Positions 7,563 to 38,384 of a stretch of DNA of 54,128 nt are shown piece after piece. A model generated the notes under the pieces. It ran no database searches. It was not told the DNA's origin and worked only from the letters and a program-made list of their open reading frames with translations. Positions within the stretch are counted from its first letter, which is position 1. Every line of letters starts with the position of its first letter. The DNA comes from Planctomycetes bacterium GWF2_41_51 (lineage in GTDB: Bacteria > Planctomycetota > Phycisphaerae > Sedimentisphaerales > UBA12454), in contig MHXZ01000045.1 of assembly GCA_001825665.1 (NCBI GenBank), forward strand, positions 1 to 54,128. Reading direction: 5' to 3'. The position numbers were made by a program, and so were the translations under genes.

Positions 7563-7627
7563 TTAATAAGGAGCAATCTTGAGCCTGATTATGTTGCTAA
7601 AGAGCAAGGAACGTAAGACTGTAAATT

Positions 7628-8509: not shown

Positions 8510-8579
8510 TAGTAGTGTAATATTTTTAGTATGTAAAAGATGTAAACTATTTTATTAACTTTTTTGGAGGTAGAAGAAA

Positions 8580-9338
8580 ATGTGTAGAAGTAAGATTGTT
8601 GTTTTAATAGCATTGTGCTTGATTGCGGTTAGTGCACAGGCAGTTCCAAATCAATTGGTAGCTCACTTCACTTTTGATGGGAATTTGCTTGACTCATCGG
8701 GCAATGGGTACACAGGCGGAGCAGGCGGGTTGGTCGGTCAGACTCATTATGTGGATGGCAGATTTGGTCAAGCTCTCGATTTTGACGGTGATGCCGATTT
8801 TATCCAGTTAATGGTTGCCTCGGATGGAATGGGCGGATGGGTCGGAGAGGGTATCAATGATCAGACGGCTGTATCATATGACATGTGGATCAAGATGGAT
8901 GCTTATCAGACGCATGATGCTGGTATACTCTCGAGCCGTGAATGGTACTGGGGCGATACGAATCTTGAAGTCCATAGTTACTTTGGTTTTGATAAAGTAT
9001 ATTTGATTAATGTTCAGGGTGCCGTTCCGGCGGAAAATCCAGTCGCCACGATTCCACAGGCGAAACTTGACCAGTGGGTTCATCTCATAGCAACATACGA
9101 TTCTGTTGCAGGTGAGGCGAAAATTTATCTTGACGACGTTCTTGTTAGTCAGGTTGCGATTGCTCCAGGTCGTGTTGTCGATATCGGCAATTACACCCTC
9201 GGCGGCAACGCTCTTTTTGGCCGGTGGTTTGACGGCCAGATTGACGATCTTAAAATTTATAACTATGCGATACCTGAGCCTGCAACAATTAGTCTTTTAG
9301 TAGTTGGCATTTCTGCTCTGATTCGCCGCAGAAAATAA
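8580..9338 (+). CDS. secreted LamG-like jellyroll protein with PEP-CTERM tail
   Basis: This fourth member of the LamG series has 252 residues. A signal peptide ends near AQA (about residue 21) and the jellyroll runs from LVAHFTFDGNLLDSSGNGY to IDDLKIYNYA. The tail IPEPATISLLVVGISALIRRRK is a classic PEP-CTERM signal: PEP motif, hydrophobic helix, basic end. It therefore replaces the dockerin-like tail of its neighbours with an exosortase-type sorting signal, implying processing at the membrane and a different final location. GGAGG precedes the ATG by about 10 bases. A strong hairpin follows 48 bases downstream, so the first transcript of the locus may end here. Confidence 0.85.
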   Translation: MCRSKIVVLIALCLIAVSAQAVPNQLVAHFTFDGNLLDSSGNGYTGGAGGLVGQTHYVDGRFGQALDFDGDADFIQLMVASDGMGGWVGEGINDQTAVSYDMWIKMDAYQTHDAGILSSREWYWGDTNLEVHSYFGFDKVYLINVQGAVPAENPVATIPQAKLDQWVHLIATYDSVAGEAKIYLDDVLVSQVAIAPGRVVDIGNYTLGGNALFGRWFDGQIDDLKIYNYAIPEPATISLLVVGISALIRRRK

Positions 9339-11303: not shown

Positions 11304-12326
11304 ATGGCAGTAAAATTTTCCAATGAAAAAAAATCCATGAAGTCCGAACAAATAAAACTTAGTCCTCGGGAAAAGTTCATTATGGCCCTCGAAGGCAGGC
11401 AGCCGCCGGGAAGAGTGCCGCATTTTGAACTTGTTTTTTTTCTGACAATGGAGTCTTTCGGACGCGTTCATCCTCTTCATCGTTGGTTTGATCAATGGGA
11501 TCAAATGTCTGAGTCTGAAAGAAGATTGCATCGTTATGATATAGCGGAGATTCATGTTCAGACTGCTCGGAAATACGAACATTCGGCAATTTTTTTTCAT
11601 CCGCCGAAAGGGTGGACTAATAATGAAATCGAAAATGTGAATGCGGCGTTAGACGCTATCCGGGAAATTTCAGGAGATGATTATTTTTTGATGTTGCACG
11701 GAGATGCTACCTATGAAATTCCAGATGGAAATAAACTTATGAATTTTATAGAGGATATCGCCGATGATCCTCAAAAAGTAAAAGATACTGCGCAAAAAAA
11801 AGTGGACATGGCACTTAAACGAGCTGCTGAATTTAAGTCTTACGGTATGTTAGACGGTTTTGGCCTGTGCAGCGATTATTGTTTTAACAGCGGCCCGTTT
11901 CTTTCACCTGCAATGTTCGATGAGTTTGTTTTGCCATATTTAACTCAACTAATCAGCGGCTATCGCGAAATGGGATTTTACACGATAAAACACACAGATG
12001 GAAATATTATGCCGATTTTGAAGTCGCTCGTCTCGGCCAAACCGCATGCCCTGCATAGTCTTGATCCGCAGGGAAATATTGATATCGCAGAAATAAAACA
12101 TTTATGCGGAAGTGAGATTTGCCTTATAGGAAATGTAAATTGTGCTCTTATGGATAACGGCACCGATGAAGAAGTTATCGAATCATGTCGATATGCCTTA
12201 AAACATGGAATGCCCGGAGGCGGTTATATATTCTCAACAAGTAATTGCGTTTATACCGGAATGAAGTTGGAGCGATACGAATTGATTTTAGATGTCTGGC
12301 GAAAAGAAGGAAATTATGAAGATTGA
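11304..12326 (+). CDS. URO-D/MtaA-like family protein
   Basis: This is a 340-residue soluble protein with a uroporphyrinogen-decarboxylase-like TIM barrel. The early segment LSPREKFIMALEGRQPPGRVPHFE is typical of the family. Later blocks include LCSDYCFNSGPFLSPAMFDEFVLPYL, IKHTDGNIMPIL and GGGYIFSTSNCVYTGM. Family members include heme-pathway decarboxylases and corrinoid methyltransferases; divergent members are common in planctomycete sugar loci with unknown roles. A heme role is unlikely here given the context. The first ATG (11304) lacks a good ribosome binding site and Met12 (11337) is a possible start. The 3' end overlaps the following gene by 11 bases, so they are probably co-translated. 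Confidence 0.75.
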   Translation: MAVKFSNEKKSMKSEQIKLSPREKFIMALEGRQPPGRVPHFELVFFLTMESFGRVHPLHRWFDQWDQMSESERRLHRYDIAEIHVQTARKYEHSAIFFHPPKGWTNNEIENVNAALDAIREISGDDYFLMLHGDATYEIPDGNKLMNFIEDIADDPQKVKDTAQKKVDMALKRAAEFKSYGMLDGFGLCSDYCFNSGPFLSPAMFDEFVLPYLTQLISGYREMGFYTIKHTDGNIMPILKSLVSAKPHALHSLDPQGNIDIAEIKHLCGSEICLIGNVNCALMDNGTDEEVIESCRYALKHGMPGGGYIFSTSNCVYTGMKLERYELILDVWRKEGNYED

Positions 12327-13923
12327 AAGATGCAAATCAATTCTGCTTTGCCTTAAATTGATATTGCTGGTTATATCATTCAATTGCCAGGCGGCTCTAA
12401 CGATGAGTCCGTGGACTGATATATTCAAAGGGGTTCAGCATGCAACCGGCTGGACAGATACTCCGCGTTTGCAGCGGGTTACTGCTGTCAGAATTGACCT
12501 TCAGGATCCTGATATTGCTTTTGTTACGACTCCTTCCAATGGCAGCGAACCCGAAGATACTAATCGGCAAACAGGCAGTCAATTTATGGCCGGCTCTGGA
12601 GTACAGATTGCAATTAATACACAATTTTATGAAAGCCCTTCTGGAATAAATTATGCAGATTTGCTTGGTGTATCAGTAAGTTGCGGACAAATTGTTTCTG
12701 CACTTGAAAATCGTAATGATAGAGCTTGTACGTTGTTAATAACGCAAAATAATCAGGCTCGCTTTCAGCATACATATACTTCAACTGATCTTACCAGTGT
12801 ATGGACCGCTATCGAAAGCTTTTCTTATATTTTGGTAAATGGCAGTCCATGGATTGACTATGGAGATCCATTGGCGACAAACGCGCATCCTCGTTCTGCG
12901 GTAGGAATTTCGTATAATCAAAGATACCTCATACTTCTTACGATAGATGGTCGCCAAACAGGCTATAGTGAAGGGGCTACTTTTTACGAAGAGGCGATTT
13001 GGCTCATTCGCTTTGGCGCATATAACGGTTTAAATCTGGATGGCGGCGGCTCCACTCACATGCTCATGTCTGATGGACATGGCGGATCAATAACATTAAA
13101 CAGTCCCTCGGAAAACAGAGCCGTTGGAAGTCATCTTGGCGTGTACGCTGCTTCGCTTATCCAGGAATTCGATGATGTATATGTCTATGCGGATTTCGAA
13201 AATGGAAATGAAGGCAAGTTTAGTTATTCGCCGGGATATTCCGGAAGCACGACAGGTATTAATGAGTCATTATCTACCGCTGACGCAATATCAACCGAAA
13301 GCCGTGCAGGAAATTGGTCGCAAAGACTTATGATTTATGATGATTCGACAGTAAGCGGCGGCTGGCTGGTACGTCATGTTTCAGGTGGAAGTGCGACAAG
13401 GTCTGAAAATGTTATTCGGCCGACAAACGGTTTTGTTGGATTGTATGCAAAGACCACCGCTTTAGGCAAAGCTATATCTATTGCGATAGATAATACAAAT
13501 AACATAACCGCCGACAGAGGCGTATTTTGGCCTCTAATCTCTGATGGTCAATGGCACTTATATGAATGGAATCTGGAAGATAATTCTCATTGGACAGGTT
13601 GGAACAACGGCGATGGAATCATTGATACCCCGGATTTTACAATAGATTCAATACAGATAACCGGCGGCGATTCGGATGCCGAAATTTTCATTGACCATAT
13701 AGCGCATAGTAATGACATCAGTCTGGCATATCTTTTCAGTATACCAGGCGATTATGAGCCGGATGGAGATGTGGATTTTATAGACTTTGCGAGGTTTTCA
13801 GCCGACTGGTTGAAAACTTCTAATTTCAATCCCATTAGTGATATGCATAATTCCGAAAATTATATTATTGATTTATTCGATTTGTCTGTTTTTGCACAAA
13901 ATTGGTTGAACGGATTAAACTGA
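12316..13923 (+). CDS. secreted phosphodiester glycosidase (NAGPA family) with dockerin-like tail
   Basis: ATG 12316 is preferred over an in-frame ATG at 12292 because AAGGA stands 4-5 bases before it. The 535-residue protein has a signal peptide (to about CQA), then a NAGPA/DUF2233-type domain with the hallmark NLDGGGSTHM (Asp242). The animal founder removes GlcNAc from GlcNAc-1-phosphodiesters, so cleavage of a sugar-1-phosphate diester is predicted. A beta-sandwich region follows (YVYADFENGNEGKF onward), with two dockerin-like loops at the end (DGDVDFIDFARFSADWL and a shorter second copy ending FAQNWL). A second NAGPA gene at 24759 carries a different C-terminus. The exact substrate is unknown. 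Confidence 0.82.
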   Translation: MKIERCKSILLCLKLILLVISFNCQAALTMSPWTDIFKGVQHATGWTDTPRLQRVTAVRIDLQDPDIAFVTTPSNGSEPEDTNRQTGSQFMAGSGVQIAINTQFYESPSGINYADLLGVSVSCGQIVSALENRNDRACTLLITQNNQARFQHTYTSTDLTSVWTAIESFSYILVNGSPWIDYGDPLATNAHPRSAVGISYNQRYLILLTIDGRQTGYSEGATFYEEAIWLIRFGAYNGLNLDGGGSTHMLMSDGHGGSITLNSPSENRAVGSHLGVYAASLIQEFDDVYVYADFENGNEGKFSYSPGYSGSTTGINESLSTADAISTESRAGNWSQRLMIYDDSTVSGGWLVRHVSGGSATRSENVIRPTNGFVGLYAKTTALGKAISIAIDNTNNITADRGVFWPLISDGQWHLYEWNLEDNSHWTGWNNGDGIIDTPDFTIDSIQITGGDSDAEIFIDHIAHSNDISLAYLFSIPGDYEPDGDVDFIDFARFSADWLKTSNFNPISDMHNSENYIIDLFDLSVFAQNWLNGLN

Positions 13924-15102: not shown

Positions 15103-15131
15103 TTTTAATGGATTTTAAAGGAAACTCTATA

Positions 15132-17663
15132 ATGCCGGTTTTTTTGTTAAAGAGTTACAGGTTTTTTGCTATTGTTTTTTTGCTTATTTTCTCACAGATT
15201 GTCATGGCAAAAGAAATTTCTTTCGCTTCGCTTCTGGAAGAAATGACCAATCGTCAGGAAGTTGCACGTTGGCCAATCCCTGATTATTCATGCGGTCAGT
15301 TCAGCAGTTATGATCGCAATTCCACTAATCCAGAAACACCAGGCTGGTGGGCAAATTGGGACAGGAGTCATTTTTTGCGTGTCGAAGAAAATCAGGGACG
15401 CAAAGAATATGTTCTTATGGATGCCAATGGCCCCGGCGCTGTTGTTCGATTTTGGACAACCTGGCACGGTCCAGATGGAACAGAATTCAGTAACGGTCTT
15501 TTACGCGTTTACCTCGATAAAAATCCTGAACCTGCGATAGAAGCTCCGGCGGAGGATTTTATCGATAAAGGACATTTAGCCGGCCCGCCTTTGTCTCAGG
15601 GAGTTTCGCCCCAGACGGAATATCGATGGCAGGGACACAATCTTTATCTGCCGATTCCTTACGCAAAACATTGCAAAATTACTTACGAATCAAAGACGTT
15701 TATCGACGTTGGCGGCCAAAAAGGCGAAGCGCTTTATTATCAAATTAATTACAGGAGCTATAAAAAAGATACGCTGGTTAAAACGTTTTCTATGAATGAT
15801 TTGAAAAAATATTCGGCTTTGCTGGAAAAAACACAGAATATTTTGAAAAACGGTTATGATTATAAAGGTAAGACAAATAAGTTGATCGGCACGCTGGCTC
15901 CAAATGGTTCGCTTTCGACAAATATTGAAGGAAGACAGGCCATTCGTGCTATGCAATTTAAACTCAATGCGGAGAACCTCTCGCAGGCACTTCGTTCTGT
16001 AATTTTGCAAGTTGAATTCGATGGCCGGAGAACAATTTGGTGTCCGATTGGTGATTTCTTTGGTACCGGTTATCGAGTTCATCCCTGCTCTACATGGTAT
16101 ACTGATGTCAGTCAAGACGGGACTTTATCATGTTTTTGGGTGATGCCGTTTAAAAAACAGGCAAAAGTAACGCTTCAGAATTTAAGCGAACAAAAAGTCG
16201 AAATTGAAGTCGGCAGCATTATAACTGATAACTGGAAATGGGATGACCGGTCGATGTATTTTCACGCCGGCTGGAAACAATGGTCGGACATTCGTACACA
16301 CAGCAACCCTGCAAATCCTGAAAACGGCGCCTCTGATTTGAACTGGATTACGATTCAGGGACGCGGTAAATATGTCGGCGATGCACTCACTCTGTATAAT
16401 AATGCGTCGCAATGGTGGGGCGAAGGCGATGAGAAAATTTATATCGACGGAGAATCTTTTCCTTCGCATTTCGGAACAGGAAGCGAAGATTATTACGGCT
16501 ATGCCTGGTGCAGACCGGCGCCTTTCAGTGCACCATTTCACGCGCAGCCTTGTGGCCAAGGCGACCTGACAATAGGATTCTCGGTGAACAGCAGATTCCG
16601 ATCGCTCGATTCTATACCTTTTACTAAATCGCTAAAATTCGATATGGAATTATGGCACTGGGTCGAAACCACAATGGATTATGCGCCGACTATATTCTGG
16701 TACGGCGATTTGAACGCTTCCGACAACATACAACCAATGCCGCTGGAAGCGCAACGACCTGTCAGAGCAGCGACAGTTGCTGAAAAAACTTATCGTAATC
16801 CCATTATTGATAAAATTGGCCCCGCTGACCCTGATGTTTTAAAATATAAGGGTAAATATTATTTATATCCGACATGGAATGGCAAAGGTTATCACGTTTT
16901 TGTTTCTGAAGACCTGATTAATTGGAAACAGGAATCAATATGTTATACTGATTCACGCGGCGGATTATGGGCGCCGGATTTGTTCTACAATGAAAAAGGC
17001 GACGGCAGGATATATCTTTATTATACCGCGAATAATCCACAAGGCGGCAAGCTCATTGGAGTTGCGGTCGGTGACAATCCTCTTGGGCCTTTCGTTGATA
17101 AGGGTAATATTGAGGATAGTAATATAATTGACGCTCACCTGTTTTCAGACGATGATGGCAAATTGTACCTTTACTATGTAAAGCTCGGCAATCCATTTAT
17201 TATTTTTGTCCAGCCGATGAGCGACCCTTTAACTAAACAAGGAGAACCAAAAGAAGTTCTTCGTCCAACAGTTGAATGGGAACAGCGTCGCGGCCGTGTT
17301 ACAGAAGGACCATTCATGCTCAAACACAAAAATACTTATTACCTGATGTACTCCGGCAGTGGAGCCAATGGGCCGGAATATGCTATTGGTTATGCGACCA
17401 GCAAATCGCCTCTTGGCCCTTTTGTAAAATATGAAAATAATCCCATCGCAAAACAGGGCAATGGAGTTTATGGCCCGGGACATCATTGTGTTACTGAAGG
17501 GCCAAATGGAAAATTATGGATGATTTACCATCAGCAGAACAGCGAAAAAGTTGGTTGGGACAGATTTATTGCGATAGACCCAGTATGGTTCGACGAAGAG
17601 GGACTGCTTCATGCAAAAACCACACGAGGCACTAATGAGAAAATGCAATGGAATGCTAAATAA
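15132..17663 (+). CDS. secreted GH172-GH43 fusion enzyme
   Basis: ATG 15132 is preferred (AAAGGA 9 bases upstream; signal peptide to MAKE) over the in-frame ATG at 15108. The 843-residue protein joins two catalytic domains. Residues about 20-540 are GH172 (formerly DUF2961). Glu431 in WWGEGDE and Glu452 in GTGSEDYYG lie 21 residues apart, the same spacing as the catalytic pair reported for the founding difructose-anhydride synthase. Residues about 555-835 are a GH43 five-bladed propeller with its three acids: Asp566 (PADPDV), Asp667 (IIDAHLF) and Glu725 (VTEGPF). GH172 includes fructofuranosidases and arabinofuranosidases; GH43 includes arabinofuranosidases, xylosidases and galactosidases. 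Two exo-enzymes on one chain suggest sequential trimming of an arabinofuranose-containing glycan. Confidence 0.87.
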   Translation: MPVFLLKSYRFFAIVFLLIFSQIVMAKEISFASLLEEMTNRQEVARWPIPDYSCGQFSSYDRNSTNPETPGWWANWDRSHFLRVEENQGRKEYVLMDANGPGAVVRFWTTWHGPDGTEFSNGLLRVYLDKNPEPAIEAPAEDFIDKGHLAGPPLSQGVSPQTEYRWQGHNLYLPIPYAKHCKITYESKTFIDVGGQKGEALYYQINYRSYKKDTLVKTFSMNDLKKYSALLEKTQNILKNGYDYKGKTNKLIGTLAPNGSLSTNIEGRQAIRAMQFKLNAENLSQALRSVILQVEFDGRRTIWCPIGDFFGTGYRVHPCSTWYTDVSQDGTLSCFWVMPFKKQAKVTLQNLSEQKVEIEVGSIITDNWKWDDRSMYFHAGWKQWSDIRTHSNPANPENGASDLNWITIQGRGKYVGDALTLYNNASQWWGEGDEKIYIDGESFPSHFGTGSEDYYGYAWCRPAPFSAPFHAQPCGQGDLTIGFSVNSRFRSLDSIPFTKSLKFDMELWHWVETTMDYAPTIFWYGDLNASDNIQPMPLEAQRPVRAATVAEKTYRNPIIDKIGPADPDVLKYKGKYYLYPTWNGKGYHVFVSEDLINWKQESICYTDSRGGLWAPDLFYNEKGDGRIYLYYTANNPQGGKLIGVAVGDNPLGPFVDKGNIEDSNIIDAHLFSDDDGKLYLYYVKLGNPFIIFVQPMSDPLTKQGEPKEVLRPTVEWEQRRGRVTEGPFMLKHKNTYYLMYSGSGANGPEYAIGYATSKSPLGPFVKYENNPIAKQGNGVYGPGHHCVTEGPNGKLWMIYHQQNSEKVGWDRFIAIDPVWFDEEGLLHAKTTRGTNEKMQWNAK

Positions 17664-24758: not shown

Positions 24759-26399
24759 ATGAAAGGTATTAAATTAATTTGGCAACTATGTGTGTTCGCG
24801 ATTGTTATTTGCCTGCAGATGTCTGCGGCTCAGGCAAAATGGTTCAATCCTTGGGTTCGTGTTTATGAAGGCGTTGAGTATTGCGAGGCGGGTGAAACTA
24901 ATCCGCTGCAGAGAGTCTTTGCATGCCGGATCGACTTGTGGAATCCAGAAGTCAGCATTAAAATCACACCAGGAAACGGCGGTGCTATCTACGATACCGT
25001 CATGCAGACAACCCCGGCTTTTGCCAACCAGTATGGCGTAGAAGCCGCTATAAATGCCAATTTTTGGTGGCAGACAAGCGGCGGCAATGCCGATCTTACC
25101 GGGCCGTCTGTTTCTGACGGCAGCATTGTCTCTTACTCCGGGCCATTCAATTATGAGTCTTGTAATATCACCCAGGATAAAGTGCCATCGTTTTTCTACT
25201 CCACCAGTGATCCGGTAGGTTGGTATGATGGCGTAACGGGCGATGTAAGAATGCTCATCAACGGTATTCCCAATGACGGATGGAAGACGGAATACCAGCC
25301 TCGTACCGCACTATCTGCATCGGCTGATGGAAGGTATTTATTCTTTGTAGTAGTCGATGGCCGTCAACCCGGATGGAGTAATGGCGCAACCTGGATACAG
25401 TTAGGCCAGTGGTGTAAAGACTTTGGTGCTTGGAATGGAATTGCGCTTGACGGCGGTGGTTCGTCAACAATGGTGGTCGGCGGTTTGGTTAAGAACCGAC
25501 CAAGCGATGGTTCCCCGCGAACCGTCGGCAATAATATGGGCGCTAACACTTCGGCATGCAACACAACCGGCGCTTCTGCCTGTGCAATGAACTCCGGCCG
25601 TCTCGACATAGTTAATCGGGACAGATATAGCGGGATTATGCTTAGAACATGGACAAGTTCAGGCGGCTGGGTAAATACTGACATGGGCGGTGTCACTTAT
25701 GAAAGTCCCGCTATAGTTTCTCGCACCAGCGGAATTCTGGATATTTTCTGCCGCAGCACAGATGGCATTCTGCATCAGAATCATTACGAAAACGGCAACT
25801 GGAGCGGCTGGCAAAACTTAAATCAAACTCTGGCATCCGGTCCTTCAGTCTGTTCTCAAAACTCCAACAATATAACAATTTGCGCAAGGAATGGTGGTAA
25901 TAATCAGGTTTATGTAAGAAACTGGACCACTTCCGGCGGTTGGGGTTCTTGGGTGCCATTGTATGGTACCACTTATGATAGCCCTTGCATTGTTTCCCGT
26001 GCCAGCGGAACACTTGATGTGTTTGCCTGCGGCCCGGATAATAAGCTGTATCAAAAAAGCAGCTATGACGGCGGCGCTACATGGACGGCTAACTGGTACA
26101 ATCATAACTTTGTTATAGGTTCTGCGCCTGCCGGCGTTTCCAGGAATTCAAATAATATCGAGCTTTTCTATCGCGGAACCAATGGCAATCTGATGGCTTA
26201 TACTTGGAATTCTTCTACAGGCTGGAGTTCCGCCAATCATGGTGGCCAGCTTGCAGGTGTTCCGGCTGTATGTCGGCGAACTTCGGACTCCTTGGATATT
26301 TTCGTTCGTGGCACGGAAGACAATATGTACCAGCTTGGATGGACTGCCGGTGGTGGCTGGTGGACAGGATTCTATGATATGGGAGCTTTTTATTGGTGA
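24759..26399 (+). CDS. secreted phosphodiester glycosidase (NAGPA) with PLL-like propeller
   Basis: ATG 24759 is chosen because AAAGGAAAGG precedes it and a clean signal peptide follows (cleaved near AAQA, residue 26); an upstream in-frame ATG at 24678 has neither. The 546-residue protein has a NAGPA domain (to about residue 250, hallmark ALDGGGSSTM with Asp231) that predicts cleavage of sugar-1-phosphodiesters. From about residue 275 to the end are six propeller repeats of about 45 residues, each ending in a GxW/GW pattern and starting PxxVSR. They resemble PLL-type (DUF346) sugar-binding beta-propellers. The same propeller ends the proteins at 27520 and 29156. A hairpin follows the stop. 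Confidence 0.85.
   Translation: MKGIKLIWQLCVFAIVICLQMSAAQAKWFNPWVRVYEGVEYCEAGETNPLQRVFACRIDLWNPEVSIKITPGNGGAIYDTVMQTTPAFANQYGVEAAINANFWWQTSGGNADLTGPSVSDGSIVSYSGPFNYESCNITQDKVPSFFYSTSDPVGWYDGVTGDVRMLINGIPNDGWKTEYQPRTALSASADGRYLFFVVVDGRQPGWSNGATWIQLGQWCKDFGAWNGIALDGGGSSTMVVGGLVKNRPSDGSPRTVGNNMGANTSACNTTGASACAMNSGRLDIVNRDRYSGIMLRTWTSSGGWVNTDMGGVTYESPAIVSRTSGILDIFCRSTDGILHQNHYENGNWSGWQNLNQTLASGPSVCSQNSNNITICARNGGNNQVYVRNWTTSGGWGSWVPLYGTTYDSPCIVSRASGTLDVFACGPDNKLYQKSSYDGGATWTANWYNHNFVIGSAPAGVSRNSNNIELFYRGTNGNLMAYTWNSSTGWSSANHGGQLAGVPAVCRRTSDSLDIFVRGTEDNMYQLGWTAGGGWWTGFYDMGAFYW
25772..26149 (+). repeat. propeller DNA repeat, copy 1
   Basis: This 378-base tract aligns without gaps to 30001-30378 in the amidase gene. 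I count about 18 differences by eye (about 95% identity), most of them in the middle; the first ~180 bases differ at only two sites. It encodes blades 2-5 of the propeller. The identity exceeds that of the flanking parts of the same two genes, which suggests gene conversion or recent recombination. Confidence 0.85.
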
Positions 26400-26439
26400 G
26401 AATCATTACTTGTCTTTCTAAGTTTGTGAGTTAATTTTA

Positions 26440-26473
26440 TGAATCGTCCGGTATGTCTTTTCCGGACGATTCA
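26440..26473 (+). terminator. terminator hairpin after the NAGPA-propeller gene
   Basis: GAATCGTCCGG (26441-26451) pairs perfectly with CCGGACGATTC (26462-26472), and T26440-A26473 extends the stem to 12 bp. The T-rich stretch is in the loop, not after the stem, so Rho-independent termination is uncertain; it may instead protect the 3' end. Confidence 0.6.
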
Positions 26474-26582
26474 ATCCTCGAGGAATAGCTGAGCAATTAG
26501 TAAAGCGTGTATTCTGCGGAGATTCTGCGCGCGGAGTACTAAAAAATTAAAACTATGAATACTTAAATTAAGGAGATAACAG

Positions 26583-27488
26583 ATGTATCACAAATCAATA
26601 CTTTCTACTTGTGTGATATTACTTATCACTGCCGGTGTTTTTGCCGGCCGGTACCAATATCAGCAGGTTACAACCTTACAATATGGTTCAGCATCTGACC
26701 AGATCGGCTTGATCATAGAAGACAACATGCCGCCATCAGGCCCTGAATCTTTCTGGGTCGATAACGCTGGTTGTATCTACGTATGCGACTCTGTAAATAA
26801 GCAAATTAAAAAGCTCAATCCTGCGGGTAAAATCATGGCTCAAAAGGCTGTTGACTTTTCAGCTAATGATATAGCAGTGGATGATTCTGGTAATATATTC
26901 TTATTTGACAGGTCAAGAAGAGTTATCCAGCAATTCTCATCTGATGGCAAAAAGAATGAGATTAATATCAGCAAAGAATTAAATGACACCGCATTCGGTT
27001 TGAAGATAGTTGACGATGAACTGGTATTTGAGACAGGCCTCCAGAGTCAGGTTCAATTAACAGAGAACAAGGCTCTAAAGAGCAATGGCGCTGTTAAAAA
27101 TGGAATCAAAGGCAACAATGGCAAACGTTTTAATGTCCTTAGAAATATGGAAAGAAAAGGTGAGATAGATGTTACAGATGAAAATGGTAACATCCAGGAT
27201 CTTCTTGTACTTCCTGTTGATAATGTTGCTTCAATAGTATTCCTCGGTCAGGATAAAAAGGGCAACAGCTATTTCCAGGTTGAGATTTCCAAACAAGACA
27301 TTCAGGGTGTATCGTTAAATGTATATTGCTTAAATATCGATGGCGATATTGACAGTATCATCTCTGACATTCCAAACAACTACAGTGTATGGACAGCTAA
27401 ACTTCTTCAGCTATGTAAAAATGGTGATATCTACCAGGTTCTGCCTACAGAAGAGAATGTCCAGGTAAATGTTTGGAAACGTAAATAA
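26583..27488 (+). CDS. secreted NHL/SMP-30-like propeller protein
   Basis: This is a 301-residue protein with a signal peptide (to about residue 21, VFAG). It contains NHL-like repeats: FWVDNAGCIYVCDSVNKQIKKLNPAGKI and IAVDDSGNIFLFDRSRRVIQQFSSDGK, with a weaker later one around LGQDKKGNSYFQVEIS. NHL propellers usually mediate binding, and no catalytic motif is apparent. AAGGAG precedes ATG 26583. It sits between two genes for propeller-bearing hydrolases on the same strand, 32 bases before the next start. It could be a partner, a self-protection protein or an unrelated binding protein; I cannot tell which. Confidence 0.6.
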   Translation: MYHKSILSTCVILLITAGVFAGRYQYQQVTTLQYGSASDQIGLIIEDNMPPSGPESFWVDNAGCIYVCDSVNKQIKKLNPAGKIMAQKAVDFSANDIAVDDSGNIFLFDRSRRVIQQFSSDGKKNEINISKELNDTAFGLKIVDDELVFETGLQSQVQLTENKALKSNGAVKNGIKGNNGKRFNVLRNMERKGEIDVTDENGNIQDLLVLPVDNVASIVFLGQDKKGNSYFQVEISKQDIQGVSLNVYCLNIDGDIDSIISDIPNNYSVWTAKLLQLCKNGDIYQVLPTEENVQVNVWKRK

Positions 27489-27519
27489 ACGCATTTAACT
27501 TTATATAGGAGATATACCA

Positions 27520-29004
27520 ATGTTTAATATTAATAAATATAAAATGGCATCTCTTGTGATGCTTATTGTTAGTTTGGCTCTCAGCACTGTCAGTTTTGGA
27601 TGGTCAGGGGTAACCTGGGGCAATATGGAACGTGAAGAGATCGTCAGAATTGCCGACGACATGATCGATGTTTCATGGAGACCTTTAAATAATATTTATA
27701 ATTATCGTTCGCCATCAGGCGGTTATACATGGTTCTATTCAAACACTACATACTATGGTGTTGCGTACATGATGAATAATCCAGTTGATGACCTTGCAGA
27801 GTTTTTGGCTCATGTCAATACCACACCCGGCGGAACAACCTATTATGGCAATGACTGTTCTGCTTTTGTAAGTATGTGCTGGAAGATGACACAGAGGCAT
27901 ACAACCAGCAGTATCGAAGGTGCTACGAGTTATGTAACACTCTTAGGCTCTGATGGCCAGTGTGATGATGTTTCGCTTATTATTGGTGATGCCTGCAATG
28001 ACAATGGCAGCCATATTATTCTGTTCGATTACTATTCCGGCAGTGGTGGTATGTATTCTATGGAACAGACTCCTGCTACCGCTACAAGAAGATACTGGTC
28101 ATGGAGCAGCTTGGCATCTTACAGACCGCTAAGAAGAAAAAATCTGGTAGATTATTCTCAATATGACGGTCCAGCCGCATGTTCAATGAACTCTGGCCGC
28201 ATTGATGTAGTTTCGCGAGGCAGCGCAGGCCAGGTCAAACTTAGAACATGGACAAGTGGCGGCGGATGGACAACAGGCAGCCTTGGTGGTGTTACTAACC
28301 AAAGCCCAACTATCGTTTCTCGAACCAATGGAATCCTGGACGCTTTCTGCGCCAGCACAGATGGCATTCTGCATCAGAATCATTACGAAAACGGCAATTG
28401 GAGTGGCTGGCAGAACTTAGGCCAAACTCTGGCTTCCGGTCCTGCAGCATGTTCGCAGAACTCTACTAATATAACCATCGCCGCTCGCGGTGTCGGCAAC
28501 AACAACGTGTGGGTTAGAAATTGGAACTCCTCCAGCGGTTGGGGTTCATGGGTAAACCTCGGTGGTATCACTTACCATAGCCCCTGTATTGTTTCCCGTG
28601 CCAGCGGAACACTTGATGTGTTTATCCGTGATGGAAACGGTTATTTGCAGCAGAACAGCAGCTATAACGGCGGCAGCACATGGAGCGGGTGGGCCAGTTA
28701 TGGCTTTATTATTGGGTCCTCGCCGGCCGGGCTCTCCAGGAGCTCAAGCAATGTTGAGCTTTTCTATAGGCAAAGCTTTGTCTATGGCAACGGCAATAAT
28801 TTGATGGGCTACTACTGGAATGGTGCCACCGGCTGGGCTGTTGCTGGTCATGGTGGCCAGATGGTAGGTGTCCCCTCGGTCGCAAAGCGAGACTCCAATA
28901 CCATGGATGTTTTCGTTCGCGGCTTAGATGGCAATTTGTACCAGCTTGGCTGGACTGCCGCTGGCGGATGGTGGACAGGATTCTATAATATGGGAGCCTA
29001 TTAA
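27520..29004 (+). CDS. secreted NlpC/P60-like peptidase with PLL-like propeller
   Basis: This is a 494-residue protein. The signal peptide ends near residue 26 (VSFG). An NlpC/P60-like cysteine peptidase domain (about 35-205) has the nucleophile region YYGNDCSAFVSMCW (Cys113) and a downstream GSHIILF (His165). Such enzymes cut peptidoglycan stem peptides, typically between D-Glu (or D-iGln) and the diamino acid. From about residue 215 to the end is the six-repeat PLL-like propeller shared with the neighbouring NAGPA and amidase proteins, but this copy is more diverged and has a short insertion (QSFVYGNGNN). GGAGATATACC precedes the ATG. It is probably co-transcribed with the NHL-like gene 32 bases upstream. 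Confidence 0.8.
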   Translation: MFNINKYKMASLVMLIVSLALSTVSFGWSGVTWGNMEREEIVRIADDMIDVSWRPLNNIYNYRSPSGGYTWFYSNTTYYGVAYMMNNPVDDLAEFLAHVNTTPGGTTYYGNDCSAFVSMCWKMTQRHTTSSIEGATSYVTLLGSDGQCDDVSLIIGDACNDNGSHIILFDYYSGSGGMYSMEQTPATATRRYWSWSSLASYRPLRRKNLVDYSQYDGPAACSMNSGRIDVVSRGSAGQVKLRTWTSGGGWTTGSLGGVTNQSPTIVSRTNGILDAFCASTDGILHQNHYENGNWSGWQNLGQTLASGPAACSQNSTNITIAARGVGNNNVWVRNWNSSSGWGSWVNLGGITYHSPCIVSRASGTLDVFIRDGNGYLQQNSSYNGGSTWSGWASYGFIIGSSPAGLSRSSSNVELFYRQSFVYGNGNNLMGYYWNGATGWAVAGHGGQMVGVPSVAKRDSNTMDVFVRGLDGNLYQLGWTAAGGWWTGFYNMGAY

Positions 29005-29073
29005 CGCTGGTCTTTTTGTATTTTTTCATAAGGCCTGCTGCTGAAGTAGCAGGTGGATATCTTAGTTGATTCC

Positions 29074-29108
29074 GGAATCGTCCCTGAAGATTCTCTTCGG
29101 ATGATTCC
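29074..29108 (+). terminator. terminator-like hairpin after the NlpC/P60-propeller gene
   Basis: GGAATCGTCC (29074-29083) pairs with GGATGATTCC (29099-29108) with one G-T wobble, and an inner GAAGA/TCTTC stem closes the loop. The outer arm resembles the GAATCGTCC arm of the hairpin at 26440, so the two look like related elements. No strong T-run follows. Confidence 0.5.
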
Positions 29109-29155
29109 CTTGCGACAATAAATTTTGAATATTTAGAGAAGGGAGAATGATTATC

Positions 29156-30625
29156 ATGATTAATAAGCAAACGTTATCCATTAAAATTGTTGTAATTTTT
29201 TTAGTATGCATATTAACGGCTATTCCGGCCTTTGCATTGAAGGTTTATGTCAATCCCAGTATTCAAACCGGTAACTACAGTCCTGATGGAGCTTATCAGG
29301 AAGCCGCAGGCATGCAGGATGTGGCTGTTCGGCTTGTCAACAAACTTATTGGCCGCGGTATAGAGGCTCGTAATTCAGGCTGGTTGAGCCTATCAGGGGC
29401 TTGTACCGATTCAGAAAATTGGGGCTCTGATTGTTTTGTTGCGCTGCATACCGATGCATCAGGATCTGGTTGGACATCTACTCATGGCACGACAACACTT
29501 TATTGGTACAACAATCCAACCTCTGCTTACTTTGCTGGAATATGCAGTGATCAAGTGTCACGGCATTTTACTAAATTTGGCTTGAATTATAACCGTGGGA
29601 CTTCTGCCAGAAGCGATTTGTATGTTCTTAATCCATCGAACCAATCTGCCGTTCCAAGCGCTTTGGTTGAGGGATTGTTCCATACAAATTATAACGATGT
29701 GTATGGCGCATTGATGAATGATAGCGGTCGTCAGGCTTATGCGGAGGGTGTATGTGCGGCGGTATGCAAGTATTACGGCATAATCTACAATGAGGACGGT
29801 CCGAGCGCTTGTTCAATGAATTCTAACCGAATTGACATGGTTTCTCGGGGTGCATATGGTCAGGTTGTCCTTGATACATGGACAAGTGCCGTCGGCTGGT
29901 CAACGGTTAGCTTAGGTGGTGTTACTTACGAGGCTCCCGCTATAGTTTCTCGAACGAACGGAATTCTGGATGCTTTCTGTGCCAGCACAACCGGCGTTCT
30001 GCATCAGAATCATTACGAAAACGGCAACTGGAGCGGCTGGCAGAACTTAAATCAAACTCTGGCATCCGGTCCTTCAGTCTGTTCCCAAAACTCCAACAAT
30101 ATAACAATTTGCGCAAGGAATGGTGGTAATAATCAGGTTTATGTAAGAAACTGGACCACTTCCGGCGGTTGGGGTTCCTGGGTACCCTTGTATGGTACAA
30201 CCTATGACAGCCCTTGCATTGTTTCCCGTGCCAGCGGAACACTTGATGTATTTGCCCGCGGCCCGGATAATAAACTGTACCAAAAGAGCAGCTATGACGG
30301 CGGCGTGACCTGGACGGCTAATTGGTACAATCATAACTTTGTTATAGGTTCTGCGCCTGCCGGTGTTTCCAGGAATTCTGGTAATGTCGAGCTTTTCTTT
30401 CGCGGGACCAACAATAATATGATGGGCCATAACTGGAATTCCGGTGGAGTCTGGACTTTAGCTGATTACGGTGGCCAGATCTCAGCTGTCCCCGCGGTCG
30501 CTAAACGGGATTCCAATACCATGGATGTTTTCGTTCGCGGTACAGATGACTATTTATACCAGCTCGGGTGGACTGCTGCCGGCGGTTGGTGGGCAGGATA
30601 CTATAATATGGGATACTATTATTGA
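29156..30625 (+). CDS. secreted Amidase_3-type muramoyl amidase with PLL-like propeller
   Basis: There are three ATGs in a row of codons (29147 and 29156 in frame). AAGGGAG at 29139-29145 is one base from the first but 10 from 29156, so 29156 is preferred. After a signal peptide (to AFA, about residue 27), residues 28-210 look like an Amidase_3 domain: Glu49 (GAYQEAAGM), His98 (VALHTDAS) and Glu172 (LVEGLFHTN) match zinc-ligand and catalytic positions. The usual first ligand in DPGHGG is replaced by NPSIQTGN, as in a known divergent subgroup. The family hydrolyses the MurNAc-L-Ala bond of peptidoglycan. The rest is the six-repeat propeller, nearly identical in its middle to that of the protein at 24759. 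Confidence 0.8.
   Translation: MINKQTLSIKIVVIFLVCILTAIPAFALKVYVNPSIQTGNYSPDGAYQEAAGMQDVAVRLVNKLIGRGIEARNSGWLSLSGACTDSENWGSDCFVALHTDASGSGWTSTHGTTTLYWYNNPTSAYFAGICSDQVSRHFTKFGLNYNRGTSARSDLYVLNPSNQSAVPSALVEGLFHTNYNDVYGALMNDSGRQAYAEGVCAAVCKYYGIIYNEDGPSACSMNSNRIDMVSRGAYGQVVLDTWTSAVGWSTVSLGGVTYEAPAIVSRTNGILDAFCASTTGVLHQNHYENGNWSGWQNLNQTLASGPSVCSQNSNNITICARNGGNNQVYVRNWTTSGGWGSWVPLYGTTYDSPCIVSRASGTLDVFARGPDNKLYQKSSYDGGVTWTANWYNHNFVIGSAPAGVSRNSGNVELFFRGTNNNMMGHNWNSGGVWTLADYGGQISAVPAVAKRDSNTMDVFVRGTDDYLYQLGWTAAGGWWAGYYNMGYYY
30001..30378 (+). repeat. propeller DNA repeat, copy 2
   Basis: This is the partner of the tract at 25772-26149, in the same orientation and 4229 bases downstream. Direct repeats of this length can recombine, which would delete the NHL and NlpC/P60 genes and leave a NAGPA-propeller chimera. 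Confidence 0.85.
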
Positions 30626-33503: not shown

Positions 33504-36500
33504 TTACAGCTTTTCAAATTTAACAGCGTCAGCGCACGTACTTGGCGGACTTCCTGTCGGCGCTATTATAATAACGTTATAAGCCGTTCCCGCCTCCATC
33601 TGGTATTCCCCGAGCACGTTCCACTTTCCTCCATCTTTTGTCTGATCGACAAGAACATTATCATATCCACTGCTGTTTTGCACGATTACAGGAACACTCG
33701 AACTTCTGCTTTCCATTGCCGTCCACCACATTGAAACTCTGTACATCCCAGTCTCCGCCGGCGTAAAAGCCCACGCGTAAATCATCCCGCTGTGTCCCCA
33801 TAATGAATTGCTTCCATAAAATCCCTCTGCGTTTGAAACCTGCCAGTTGCCCATAGACGCCGTTCTGACATCGCCGTTGTCGATTATGTAATCGCAGATA
33901 TCAAGTGTTTTCGTTAATGGTTCCGACCATTGCTCTTCATTGTCCTGCACCCGAAACGTAATTACATGTCTGCCGATTGCCAGAGTATCAATGCTGAAAG
34001 CCGATTGTTCGCTTATGACCCCATCAATATTTGATTCCCATTTGTAAGCGATGATTGTCCCGTCGAAATCTGTTCCGCTTCCCGCAAAACAAACCTGCTG
34101 ACCGACTAGCGCAGGATTTGGCGTTATTGATTCTATCGTCGCTCTTGGCGCCACGTTTCCGCTGCCAAGCAAAACAAACTTTACAGCGTCCGCGCTCGTA
34201 TTTGGCGGATTGCCCGTCGGAGCCGTTATTTTTACGTTATAGGGGGCTCCCCCGATAAACGCGTATTCTCCCAAATCGTTCCATTTTCCACCGTTGCCCG
34301 CTTGGTTTACATCAACTATCGACGTTCCCTCTGCATGCTCAATATTTATAGGAACGCTTCTGGCCCGGCTCTCTGCGTATGTCCACCACATCGAAACTCT
34401 GTAATTTCCCGTTTCCATCGGCCGGAATATCCACGTATAAGTCGCTCCATTCGCGCTCCAAAGCGAACCCGTACTGTAAGGTCCCGCCGCAGATGAATAC
34501 AGCCATGTCCCCGTTGACGTCGTGCTTCCGGTCTGCCCGTTATCGATAATTATCGCACCCGCCGGCCAAAACGAATTCCACATATCCCGAATGTACCACC
34601 CGCCCAGCACCTCGCCGCCTTCCGGAACATCCGCATCATACCATCTCTCAACATAATCAAAAAATGCGTCATGCCCCCATAAATCCTCCACGCCCATCAA
34701 TTTAATTGCGATTGCCTCACCAATCCACGCCTTCGACGTACAGCAATTTCGATACTCAGGGCAGCCGTCTTTGATACCCTGAGGATCGCGGCAATCTTTC
34801 GCCCCCAGCGTCCCCGAACACGTTTCCGTATAAGGACTCACGCAGTTCCGTCCCCACAGCGCCTTCGTTTGACCATGATATGTCTGACTATCTTCGCTCC
34901 CGATAATCCTTCCCGTCTGCGCGACATTTTTCATCTCATCGGCATCAAGCATTATACCCGCAAAAATAATCGGCCATTTCCGCCCGTTATCGTGTCCGCC
35001 TCCATTGCCCCACGTTCTTCCATTTTCGCTCAGATAATAAAAATCAATTCCCGTTTGTACAAAATTAACAAGCAACGGCTCCAATTCTTCATCGCTATAA
35101 TCAAGCATCAAAAGACACGCCGCTTCACTGACTTCAGTACCTATTTCCCGCCCGAAATTAGGCATATTCCTCAAAGGATGAATTCTCCTTGGCCACTCAT
35201 CGCCGTTCATATGATCAACCCACACATTCTGAAATTCTTTCGTTATCCCCTTTAGATATCCCGCGCTCGGCCTCGTCGCCAGCGGCAGTCTCGGCAGCAA
35301 TTCTTTCTTTAAAGAATTTTTCGTAAAAAACTTTTTTTCAATTCCGCTATACCCCGGCCGAAAAACATCCCGCATCGGACAATAACTAACCGAAGTCAAA
35401 ACCGCCGCGCTGTAAAGATACGAATGAAATTCACTTGGCCCATAATGAACACAATAATCCGATATATCATAATATCCATCCGTGCACTTCCATGAATTTT
35501 GGTCCGTAATCGACGCCGCCGATACAAGCGAATTAATCCCCTCAAGAACAGCAGGAAAGCCGACATTCAATAATTGAACAAATCCCACCACGCGTCCGTC
35601 GTAGCCCTGGTAATCATGCCCAGTCGGATTCAGCATCGAACCATTTCTAAATTCATTCCCCGCCCCAAAACACGCCGGACTCACATCGTTTATCTCAACA
35701 TAAGGCCCAAGCGCCCAGTAATCCCCATTACAGAACTGCCCAATCCTGCGTTCATCCTCAAACGTCCATCGTATCCCGTTTCGATAAACCGCCTCGCTGC
35801 GATATTCCCTCACCGGCCAATCCTTCACCTCGAACAGCTTCGCCAGATTACTGTCGCTCTCATCATCCGTAACAATATGAATAACATCCCACTCACAGAA
35901 AGAATATTCCTCAATATCAGTGATGGAATTAAATGGATTGTCTTCGCTTCCGTCTCCCGAAACAGCATTGCTCGCCTTCACCCAAAATTCCCTTTGTGCC
36001 GCATAATGAAACCCGATATCCCGCACATCATCATCAATCACACAATTAGCATCGGTCGTATATCCGTACATCGCCGAATCGCCCGCATCGCCGCCATTCA
36101 CCAAATCCGATTCCCTCGGCAAATAAAACCTCCCCGCAAAATCATCCCACCGTTCTTCACCAATAAAATCATCAGCATTTAATTCCCTCGTCCCCGAAAC
36201 AAACGGCAGGGCAGAGCAATCCGTTTCGCTTAACACATCATAACTGTACTCGCCGCTTTTATTTAAAATTCGATGATTTCCGTTTTGATAAAACGCGTTA
36301 TTATTTTCCGCCAGCGACGACCCCGGCTTCAGCCACGTATATTCATAAATCCCCGACCTCCCGTTATTCCTGAAAATGCAATTCCGCACATCATAACTTA
36401 CTTCCGGATTCGACATCACATACAGCCCATAAAGCGTATTCCTCTCGAAATTGCAGTTTATCGCCTCCATATCCGCCCCGAAAGAATGATACATTCCTAT

Positions 36501-38384
36501 ACCGTTACCGACAAACAAACTATTCACAGATTTATTTCCCTGGATGCCCTGGTAATTATTTTTAAAAATATTATCGTGAAATGCCTCATCCGCCGCGCCG
36601 CTCAGTATCCCATACCCCAGCCCCGTAAAATCGCAGAAGCTGAATTCCGCACCCATATTCGCAGGCCGAACAGCCCCGTTGCTTATCTCTCTGTATTTTA
36701 TCCTCTCCCATCCCGCGCTCGCCAATCCGTAATTCATATATTTGATTCTTCCCCCGAAAGGCCTGCCGTTTGAAATAATTTTCCCGCACTGAATCGTTTG
36801 ACTCTGCCCCCCAATCGCGACAACCGTCCCCGGCCATACTGTCAAACTGTTCCCCGAAATATTTACACTCACCCCCGGCAAAATAAAATAATCAATCCTC
36901 GAATGATGATACCCGATGTCAACCGCTCCCACATCGAAATTTTCACTGGGCGTCCAAACCGTATCTTTCGATAAATGCGTCCCCGATGTAAACACGCGCC
37001 TGCTCAAGGCATCATCACAAACCGCCCGCACAGTCCAGTTCTGCTGCTCTGCATAACAATCAGCCGCATTCCCCAGTCCCGCGTTCTTTAATAAACCGCC
37101 TCCGCCGCTGTCATCATTTAAAAAATGCGCTCCGAGATAATCGCCCGCCGTATCGAACGGATTATTACTGCAAACAACATAATTATCTCCCGCCTCCGCC
37201 GCATTATAAAAACCATTATTCAGTATCTGCGCATTGAGCGTATCTGTATAAATCCCGTCAGTATCGCAGTCCGTTACGAGGTTATTAATTATCTCGAAAT
37301 TTCCTCCCGGCCCTCGTTCTCTCTCGCAATAAATCCCGAAACAATTCTTTGCGATTGTATTATTGCTGATTACCGCATTGGCGTTAAGCATATTCAAACT
37401 CGTAAAATAAACCCCGTAGCTTTCGTCTGCTGAATCGTTAAAGATAAGATTATTTTTTATTCGAAATATTCCCTGCCCGCCATAATCTATAAACCCGCCG
37501 ATTCCCGTTGTCCCGAAATTATAAATTATATTGTTCTCAATGCTTCCGTTCGCGTCATTCCGCCACAAAACTTCAGCCGCCGTATCCGCATACCCGATTT
37601 TACAAAAACTTACACAATCATCTTCGGACAGGCACAATCCTCCCCAGCATCCGCGCCAGGGCTCATTGGAATCGATTACCTCTCCCATTAATGAATCGTA
37701 TTTGCTTGTGAATATGATGTACTCGTAAGGTTTGCCTTTCGCCGTCAATTTCCCGTTCTGTGCGTTTATATACGCACCGTCCTCGAACTTGACGATTGTC
37801 CCCGGCTCGATTCTCAATTCCACTCCGCTGCCGATTGTAATAGTAGATGAAATATAATATGTTGCGTCGGAGTACCATACTTCATCTTCCGTTAATATCA
37901 CATTTTCCGGCTCAGATAATGGTTTGTACTTCTCGATTACTTTCGATTTCTCTTCAACCATTATCATTTTATTTGCAATTGGGTCTTTCTTCTCGACCCA
38001 TTTTGATATTTCCCATACCCGAGTATTTTGATTCCGCTGATTTGTTATTTCCGTCCATATAGGTTTTTGCTCATCTCGTGTATCATTGGCCAACGACGAT
38101 TGCACCACAGGCCGCAAAAATGAATAACAAATTAAAAAGGAAACAATAAAAATAACCTCTAATAATTGAATAAAGGTGATTCCGTCATTTCGACCGGAGC
38201 GAAGCGCAGTGGAGAAATCTTTTATAAAAGCAATATTCCTATTTGCCTTAGTCGATGTTTTATTTAAAAAGTTAATTTTTAGAGATATTCTTAAAACTGT
38301 GATAAACTTTACAGCGATTTCACCGGCCCGAAAAAAAATCCCCATTCTAACCTCAGCGAACAATTGTATATTGTTACAATACAA
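33504..38384 (-). CDS. giant prepilin-leader beta-helix protein with two Golvesin/Xly domains
   Basis: The ORF encodes 1626 residues. A prepilin-like segment G68|ITFIQLLEVIFIVSFLICYSF suggests type II/IV-pilin-like export. A right-handed beta-helix region follows (about 130-830; repeated N-N-x-I, 'IENNIIYNFG', 'ISNNTIAKNCFGIYC'), as in pectate-lyase-like and NosD-like proteins. Next comes a helical, Cys-containing region (about 1000-1260) I do not recognise. The end has two Golvesin/Xly CBD-like domains (each YRVSMWW...GGKWN.LGEY...ADAVKF) flanking a PKD-like domain (APRATIESITPNP onward). Xly-type domains occur in xanthan lyases. Codons are visibly richer in G than in neighbours. Residues about 31-67 are encoded by a dispersed repeat, so the annotated start is uncertain. 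Confidence 0.75.
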   Translation of the reverse strand: MYCNNIQLFAEVRMGIFFRAGEIAVKFITVLRISLKINFLNKTSTKANRNIAFIKDFSTALRSGRNDGITFIQLLEVIFIVSFLICYSFLRPVVQSSLANDTRDEQKPIWTEITNQRNQNTRVWEISKWVEKKDPIANKMIMVEEKSKVIEKYKPLSEPENVILTEDEVWYSDATYYISSTITIGSGVELRIEPGTIVKFEDGAYINAQNGKLTAKGKPYEYIIFTSKYDSLMGEVIDSNEPWRGCWGGLCLSEDDCVSFCKIGYADTAAEVLWRNDANGSIENNIIYNFGTTGIGGFIDYGGQGIFRIKNNLIFNDSADESYGVYFTSLNMLNANAVISNNTIAKNCFGIYCERERGPGGNFEIINNLVTDCDTDGIYTDTLNAQILNNGFYNAAEAGDNYVVCSNNPFDTAGDYLGAHFLNDDSGGGGLLKNAGLGNAADCYAEQQNWTVRAVCDDALSRRVFTSGTHLSKDTVWTPSENFDVGAVDIGYHHSRIDYFILPGVSVNISGNSLTVWPGTVVAIGGQSQTIQCGKIISNGRPFGGRIKYMNYGLASAGWERIKYREISNGAVRPANMGAEFSFCDFTGLGYGILSGAADEAFHDNIFKNNYQGIQGNKSVNSLFVGNGIGMYHSFGADMEAINCNFERNTLYGLYVMSNPEVSYDVRNCIFRNNGRSGIYEYTWLKPGSSLAENNNAFYQNGNHRILNKSGEYSYDVLSETDCSALPFVSGTRELNADDFIGEERWDDFAGRFYLPRESDLVNGGDAGDSAMYGYTTDANCVIDDDVRDIGFHYAAQREFWVKASNAVSGDGSEDNPFNSITDIEEYSFCEWDVIHIVTDDESDSNLAKLFEVKDWPVREYRSEAVYRNGIRWTFEDERRIGQFCNGDYWALGPYVEINDVSPACFGAGNEFRNGSMLNPTGHDYQGYDGRVVGFVQLLNVGFPAVLEGINSLVSAASITDQNSWKCTDGYYDISDYCVHYGPSEFHSYLYSAAVLTSVSYCPMRDVFRPGYSGIEKKFFTKNSLKKELLPRLPLATRPSAGYLKGITKEFQNVWVDHMNGDEWPRRIHPLRNMPNFGREIGTEVSEAACLLMLDYSDEELEPLLVNFVQTGIDFYYLSENGRTWGNGGGHDNGRKWPIIFAGIMLDADEMKNVAQTGRIIGSEDSQTYHGQTKALWGRNCVSPYTETCSGTLGAKDCRDPQGIKDGCPEYRNCCTSKAWIGEAIAIKLMGVEDLWGHDAFFDYVERWYDADVPEGGEVLGGWYIRDMWNSFWPAGAIIIDNGQTGSTTSTGTWLYSSAAGPYSTGSLWSANGATYTWIFRPMETGNYRVSMWWTYAESRARSVPINIEHAEGTSIVDVNQAGNGGKWNDLGEYAFIGGAPYNVKITAPTGNPPNTSADAVKFVLLGSGNVAPRATIESITPNPALVGQQVCFAGSGTDFDGTIIAYKWESNIDGVISEQSAFSIDTLAIGRHVITFRVQDNEEQWSEPLTKTLDICDYIIDNGDVRTASMGNWQVSNAEGFYGSNSLWGHSGMIYAWAFTPAETGMYRVSMWWTAMESRSSSVPVIVQNSSGYDNVLVDQTKDGGKWNVLGEYQMEAGTAYNVIIIAPTGSPPSTCADAVKFEKL
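38182..38290. repeat. dispersed repeat (GTCATTTCGACCGGAGCGAAGCG family), copy A
   Basis: This copy begins GTCATTTCGACCGGAGCGAAG and continues through GGAGAAATCTTTT and GCAATATTCC into an AT-rich tail. It aligns over about 110 bases with copy B at 39610. It lies inside the 5' end of the giant ORF, immediately before the prepilin-type glycine codon. Confidence 0.8.

Follow-up and report, generated by a model that had tools for sequence, protein, structure and literature searches.

The stretch analysed here, a window of 54,128 nucleotides of contig MHXZ01000045.1 from the Planctomycetes bacterium GWF2_41_51 assembly (GCA_001825665.1), carries three neighbouring, co-directional open reading frames (ORFs) on the plus strand, referred to as genes A, B and C. 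Each opens with an N-terminal hydrophobic, signal-like stretch, as read from the sequence, and each ends in the same six-repeat β-propeller related to the PLL lectins, following a different N-terminal domain. A preliminary description of this DNA had placed three secreted-type proteins with a common six-repeat PLL-like propeller at these coordinates, and the ORFs, the repeats, the lectin matches and a six-bladed model all uphold it. The features, with their evidence, are as follows.

24759 to 26399, plus strand: gene A, a signal-like N-terminus, a NAGPA domain and a PLL-type propeller, 546 amino acids (Pfam, phmmer)
25032 to 25538, plus strand: NAGPA catalytic domain of A, amino acids 92-260 (Pfam, conserved segments)
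25569 to 26396, plus strand: six-repeat propeller of A (DNA and protein comparison, repeats)
25719 to 26168, plus strand: conversion-like tract in the propeller of A (nucleotide identity to C)
27520 to 29004, plus strand: gene B, a signal-like N-terminus, an NlpC/P60-like Cys-His domain and a PLL-type propeller, 494 amino acids (phmmer, motif)
27598 to 28155, plus strand: putative B-type Cys-His hydrolase domain (motif conserved in relatives)
28168 to 29001, plus strand: six-repeat propeller of B; the model has six blades of four strands each (AF2, Foldseek, repeats)
29147 to 30625, plus strand: gene C, a signal-like N-terminus, an Amidase_3 domain and a PLL-type propeller, 492 amino acids (Pfam, phmmer)
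29240 to 29779, plus strand: Amidase_3 domain of C (Pfam, alignment, AF2)
29798 to 30622, plus strand: six-repeat propeller of C (phmmer, repeats)
29948 to 30397, plus strand: conversion-like tract in the propeller of C, partner of 25719-26168 (nucleotide identity to A)

The common C-terminal propeller of about 275 amino acids is 67-77% identical between pairs of the three proteins. At the DNA level, identity over about 0.8 kb is 82% for A and C, 74% for B and C and 72% for A and B, which rules out a chance likeness, and DNA comparison finds no further copy in the window. Each propeller consists of six repeats of 43-50 amino acids, and one Trp is conserved in all 18 repeats of the three proteins. 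An AlphaFold2 (AF2) model of the B propeller has 24 strands, arranged as six blades of four, with a predicted local distance difference test score (pLDDT) of about 80. In phmmer searches all three proteins match the PLL, PHL and PLL2-5 lectins through their W-motif repeats, with E values of 1e-43 to 1e-20 (A to PLL4, 8q82, E 2.8e-42; the B propeller to PLL/PHL lectins, E 4e-35; C to PHL, E 9.8e-43), such that the Photorhabdus PLL/PHL lectins are the closest solved proteins by sequence. Foldseek with the propeller model also ranks the PLL/PHL family first (E 4e-19), and comparison of the whole-domain fold places the six-bladed fucose lectins AFL and AAL at the top, with a Z score of about 30. 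The PLL/PHL lectins of Photorhabdus have seven blades (PMC6943638). Because six repeats and 24 modelled strands are found here rather than seven blades, the propeller counts as related to the PLL lectins and not as a strict member of the family. It may bind sugar at sites between the blades.

The N-terminal domain of A matches NAGPA (PF09992) with a Pfam E value of 9.9e-26 and 91 bits against a cut-off of 25, and its RTA, VDGRQ and LDGGGSS segments align with those of the solved members 6ozd, 6u11, 3ohg and 6pki. Gene A can be assigned firmly, by sequence, to the NAGPA family of phosphodiester glycosidases, as had been proposed. The genome has nine NAGPA domains in total, and the further NAGPA genes at L073:7859-9649, L073:15112-15957 and L074:7767-9377 have symporter-like, LamG-like or sulfatase-like neighbours. 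Some of the further genes, in L073 and L074, end in dockerin-like repeats. The bond type that NAGPA hydrolyses is chemically that of an N-acetylglucosamine (GlcNAc)-1-phosphodiester anchor. A literature search found no tested secreted bacterial NAGPA that cuts the linkage unit of arabinogalactan or teichoic acid, and nothing direct on the matter. Arabinogalactan, and similarly wall teichoic acid, is anchored through a GlcNAc-1-phosphodiester to N-acetylmuramic acid (MurNAc) (PMC4981717).

Gene C matches Amidase_3 (PF01520) with a Pfam E value of 1.6e-11 and 45 bits against a cut-off of 27, and the AF2 model of its amidase domain resembles solved amidases, with Z scores of 20.1 to 4rn7 and 19.8 to CwlV. 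The domain is 30-33% identical to amidases from four viral contigs (L046-L049) and to that of the phage Chenonceau type. The relatives from the viral contigs all combine NAGPA and Amidase_3 in one chain, as does the endolysin of Flavonifractor phage Chenonceau (WAK79829.1, L041:1383-2720). The preliminary description counted two enzymes here that cut peptide bonds of peptidoglycan; this has to be corrected, since Amidase_3 cuts the MurNAc-L-Ala amide and not a bond between two amino acids.

For the N-terminal domain of B, a Pfam search up to E 10 returns no family, the NlpC/P60 profile (PF00877) included, and hhalign against NlpC/P60 proteins of relatives gives a probability of only 5%. The domain does contain the Cys in a D-C-S-x-F/L motif and the downstream His that mark NlpC/P60 proteins. 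The pattern DCSxFVS ... GDAxN ... H ... ME is common to B, to a protein of the congener G002 (46-49% identical in this domain) and to a Rhizobium plasmid protein (31% identical), and the candidate catalytic codons for Cys (27856-27858), His (28012-28014) and Glu (28063-28065) are invariant in the three. With a homologue-poor input, AF2 models residues 1-189 of B with pLDDT below 50. The motif suggests an NlpC/P60-like Cys-His hydrolase, so that the NlpC/P60 peptidase first proposed survives as a motif and not as a profile match. No relatives of B were found in viral contigs or in phages, and descent of B from a phage was rejected on that ground. The B-type domain also matches 86 plasmid records, mostly hypothetical proteins where annotated.

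Gene B appears to belong with the gene immediately upstream, which ends about 30 bp before it and gives a weak NHL/SGL Pfam match.

26583 to 27488, plus strand: secreted NHL-repeat (propeller-like) protein, conserved upstream partner of B (weak NHL/SGL Pfam match, congener synteny)

In the congener G002 a 42% identical NHL homologue lies directly upstream of the B homologue, and the pair is near a symporter-like gene, with two NAGPA genes 13-15 kb downstream on the same contig. The Rhizobium plasmid protein (L042:1690-3297) joins NHL-type repeats and the B-type Cys-His domain in one chain; the likeness of its NHL stretches to the NHL protein of the window is weak and is collinear over separate stretches. 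The G002 homologue of B likewise lies beside the NHL gene, but it contains an SH3 insert, its C-terminus is made of Fn3 and dockerin, and no propeller was detected in the G002 genome. From these two genomes, the propeller of B is probably a replacement for an older tail.

A second cluster in the same genome suggests where the propeller came from. Three tandem NAGPA-propeller genes lie at L007:7236-12382 (contig C90), with propellers 28-32% identical to that of C. In a tree of NAGPA domains the four propeller-bearing members form one clade (support 88/94), and the five other NAGPA places of the genome give no propeller match. Because of this distribution, the fusion of NAGPA to the propeller is probably the older state, from which B and C later acquired their copies. 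There are also signs of exchange between the copies. Codons 51-200 of the A and C propellers are 84-100% identical in nucleotides, with flanks at 61-77%, a conversion-like pattern; the ratio of nonsynonymous to synonymous substitution (dN/dS) is about 0.3 over the whole propeller.

The propeller was not found in six congeners, nor in the other searched genomes of the family. At the level of the order there is a weak match in one genome, and at that of the phylum three of 294 genomes match, the window's own genome included, the others on unrelated proteins. The preliminary description had looked to other planctomycetes for the same propeller on neighbouring wall hydrolases, and none carry it among the genomes searched in the class and the 294 of the phylum. 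The idea that wall enzymes with this propeller form a wider family in planctomycetes was rejected, given that the weak matches fall in sialidase-like (G057), glycosidase-like (G061) and toxin-complex-like (G270) proteins. A large toxin-complex-like protein with PLL-like repeats was seen in another genome of the phylum (L075:1476-6827, minus strand). A phage origin of the propeller was also rejected, as it has no relatives among viral contigs, and a contig scan with very narrow patterns returned one match, an unrelated Actinomadura kinase-propeller protein.

The genes lie at the end of a long block devoted to glycans.

863 to 31538, plus strand: glycan-utilisation locus, co-directional, ending in A-NHL-B-C (Pfam scan of the window)
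12292 to 13923, plus strand: second NAGPA gene of the locus, without a propeller (NAGPA and propeller searches)

The order of the locus is a GntR/LacI regulator, pseudopilins, a glycoside hydrolase (GH) of family GH2, LamG proteins, two SSF symporters, a URO-D-like gene, NAGPA, GH5, a GH172-GH43 fusion, an aldose epimerase, GH43, GH116 and then A-NHL-B-C. In the fusion (15108-17663), the GH172 (DUF2961) part matches difructose-anhydride enzymes (E 3e-28) and also D-arabinofuranosidases (E 1.6e-20 and 2e-17), and the GH43 part is xylosidase/arabinofuranosidase-like. Mycobacterial arabinogalactan as the specific substrate is only a lead, since the GH172 part fits both kinds of enzyme and the GH43 part is of this general type. 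The locus content of GHs and symporters favours a catabolic role rather than that of a pure weapon, as does the setting of the G002 NHL-B pair, which has a symporter-like gene and two NAGPA genes in its vicinity. The GH2 gene has a LamG domain of its own and is followed by three consecutive LamG-domain proteins (6618-9338), and the URO-D-like gene lies inside the locus at 11304-12326. Beyond the locus, an ORF of 1626 amino acids on the minus strand (33504-38384) coincides with a stretch of strong negative GC skew. DUF1559, PEP-CTERM and dockerin features of the genome fit a planctomycete.

There is about an even chance that A, B and C together make up a set of secreted, lectin-tagged hydrolases that digests glycans of foreign envelopes or walls. 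The propeller would bind a glycan on the envelope of another bacterium and concentrate the three proteins there. The NAGPA domain of A would hydrolyse a sugar-1-phosphodiester, for example the GlcNAc-1-P-6-MurNAc unit through which wall teichoic acid or actinobacterial arabinogalactan is attached, and C, with its amidase fold, and B, a Cys-His hydrolase with its NHL partner, would cleave the stem of the peptidoglycan. Glycans released in this way could then be degraded by the GHs of the locus and imported by its symporters, such that the cell feeds on wall material. Wall material is favoured as the target because NAGPA and Amidase_3 occur together in phage endolysins, because NAGPA, TelC and NlpC/P60 are combined in Bacillota, and because the linkage bond is of the NAGPA type. 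The set is more likely to serve feeding than killing. A narrower version is improbable: that the glycan locus has been extended to eat the walls of other bacteria, for example those with actinobacterial arabinogalactan-peptidoglycan or teichoic acid, by means of a conversion-spread propeller on a NAGPA linkage-unit phosphodiesterase, an amidase and an NHL-assisted Cys hydrolase, with GH172-GH43, GH5 and GH43 degrading the polymer.

Several observations weigh against digestion of foreign walls. In an alignment of the amidase domain alone with the four viral amidases, the first zinc His of C is replaced, with PSIQ (29255-29266) in place of the canonical PGHG. The zinc Glu (29300-29302), the second His (29447-29449) and the catalytic Glu (29669-29671) are invariant, so that of the His-Glu-His zinc site and catalytic Glu one of the three zinc ligands is lost. 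Gln may substitute for the His, or the enzyme may be altered or inactive; the activity of C is not assured, and the proposed Amidase_3 identity stands for family and fold but without this His. B is a putative NlpC/P60-like protein, recognised by motif. The three-enzyme set is not repeated in any relative searched. The whole A-NHL-B-C set is embedded in a large polysaccharide-utilisation locus, and the GHs of that locus are closest to arabinan- and xylan-type enzymes, which plant or algal glycans would fit equally. Several other NAGPA genes of the genome are found in glycan loci where no wall hydrolase was seen; NAGPA alone is thus no sign of wall attack, and A could act on a non-wall glycan.

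The alternative that best survives, itself doubtful, is that the set is an ordinary part of polysaccharide utilisation for a non-wall glycan such as an exopolysaccharide, capsule, mucus, or algal or plant matrix. The NAGPA domain would remove phosphodiester-linked sugars, the propeller would serve as an anchor, and B and C would act on matrix peptides or amides, or incidentally on walls. This would suit the 863-31538 block, the whole of which is a glycan locus; the L007 trio, where two SSF symporter-like genes, a DUF4861 protein and a regulator are neighbours and no wall hydrolase was seen; and the other NAGPA genes beside sulfatases and GH-like genes. It fits less well that two of the three enzymes have a peptidoglycan-hydrolase fold or motif, with the propeller attached to exactly these, and that NAGPA is fused to Amidase_3 in phage endolysins.

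A diffusible antibacterial set, predatory or competitive, that lyses neighbours displaying the glycan of the propeller is unlikely. The closest published architecture has been proposed for conflict (PMC12419801) and the propeller copies show exchange, but no immunity gene, toxin-delivery element or lysozyme-like glycosidase is named among the scanned genes, and the locus content points to catabolism. Predation, raised in the preliminary description, is shown by nothing in the analysis. Its modular wall-dismantling set fares better, with NAGPA joined to Amidase_3 or NlpC/P60 in chains elsewhere and propeller exchange on its side, and the polysaccharide locus and the nine NAGPA domains against it. 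It is very unlikely that the producer uses the set to remodel its own envelope or matrix, with the propeller on its own surface glycan. A congener also has the B-type hydrolase and NHL partner, there with dockerin and Fn3 tails, so that the module may serve housekeeping at the surface, but both the B-type domain and the propeller are missing from most congeners and the class, an ill fit for essential housekeeping.

The phylum is known for the use of plant and algal glycans. If digestion of foreign walls by A, B and C is correct, the locus would serve to break down bacterial walls in their entirety and would include its own enzyme for the sugar-phosphate link that anchors wall polymers. It would also be a case of a binding module passed between neighbouring, unrelated hydrolases so that their target is common.

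Parts of this arrangement are known from other systems. The lipocone study described proteins of spore-forming Bacillota that combine NAGPA and prok-TelC domains, with or without NlpC/P60, and carry variable ligand-binding domains, and proposed a role in conflict (eLife 2025, PMC12419801). As in those proteins, NAGPA here accompanies a wall-peptidase class and carbohydrate-binding modules, β-propellers among them, and the binding modules recombine. The Bacillota proteins are single large chains; in the planctomycete the enzymes are encoded by three genes, all with the same PLL-type propeller, include Amidase_3 and lie in a glycan-utilisation locus. No TelC-like family is named among the scanned genes of the window, and A consists of NAGPA and the propeller only.

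NAGPA is also joined to Amidase_3 or CHAP for joint action on the bacterial wall in phage endolysins, such as that of Chenonceau (WAK79829.1), its IMG/VR relatives and the published CHAP-NAGPA-SH3_3 endolysins of gut phages (PMC13284279). These differ in having one chain, a canonical PGH zinc site, other binding modules and a role in phage lysis. The propeller resembles Photorhabdus PLL, PLL2-5 and PHL in repeat sequence and fold, but the known members are stand-alone and seven-bladed, whereas the propeller described here has six blades and is fused to enzymes. With the fucose lectins AFL, AAL and RSL it shares six blades and the fold (VIA Z about 30, root-mean-square deviation 2.2-2.5 over 269-270 residues), but sequence identity is only 12-16%, and by sequence its relatives are PLLs. 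PLL-like propellers are added to a papain-like protease on a Nocardia plasmid and to a PIG-L deacetylase on a Deinococcus plasmid. Combinations of NAGPA and peptidases with lectin modules are thus already described, but in single chains and in other lineages, and the PLL-like fusions of Nocardia and Deinococcus are single, whereas here three different enzymes in a row carry the same propeller.

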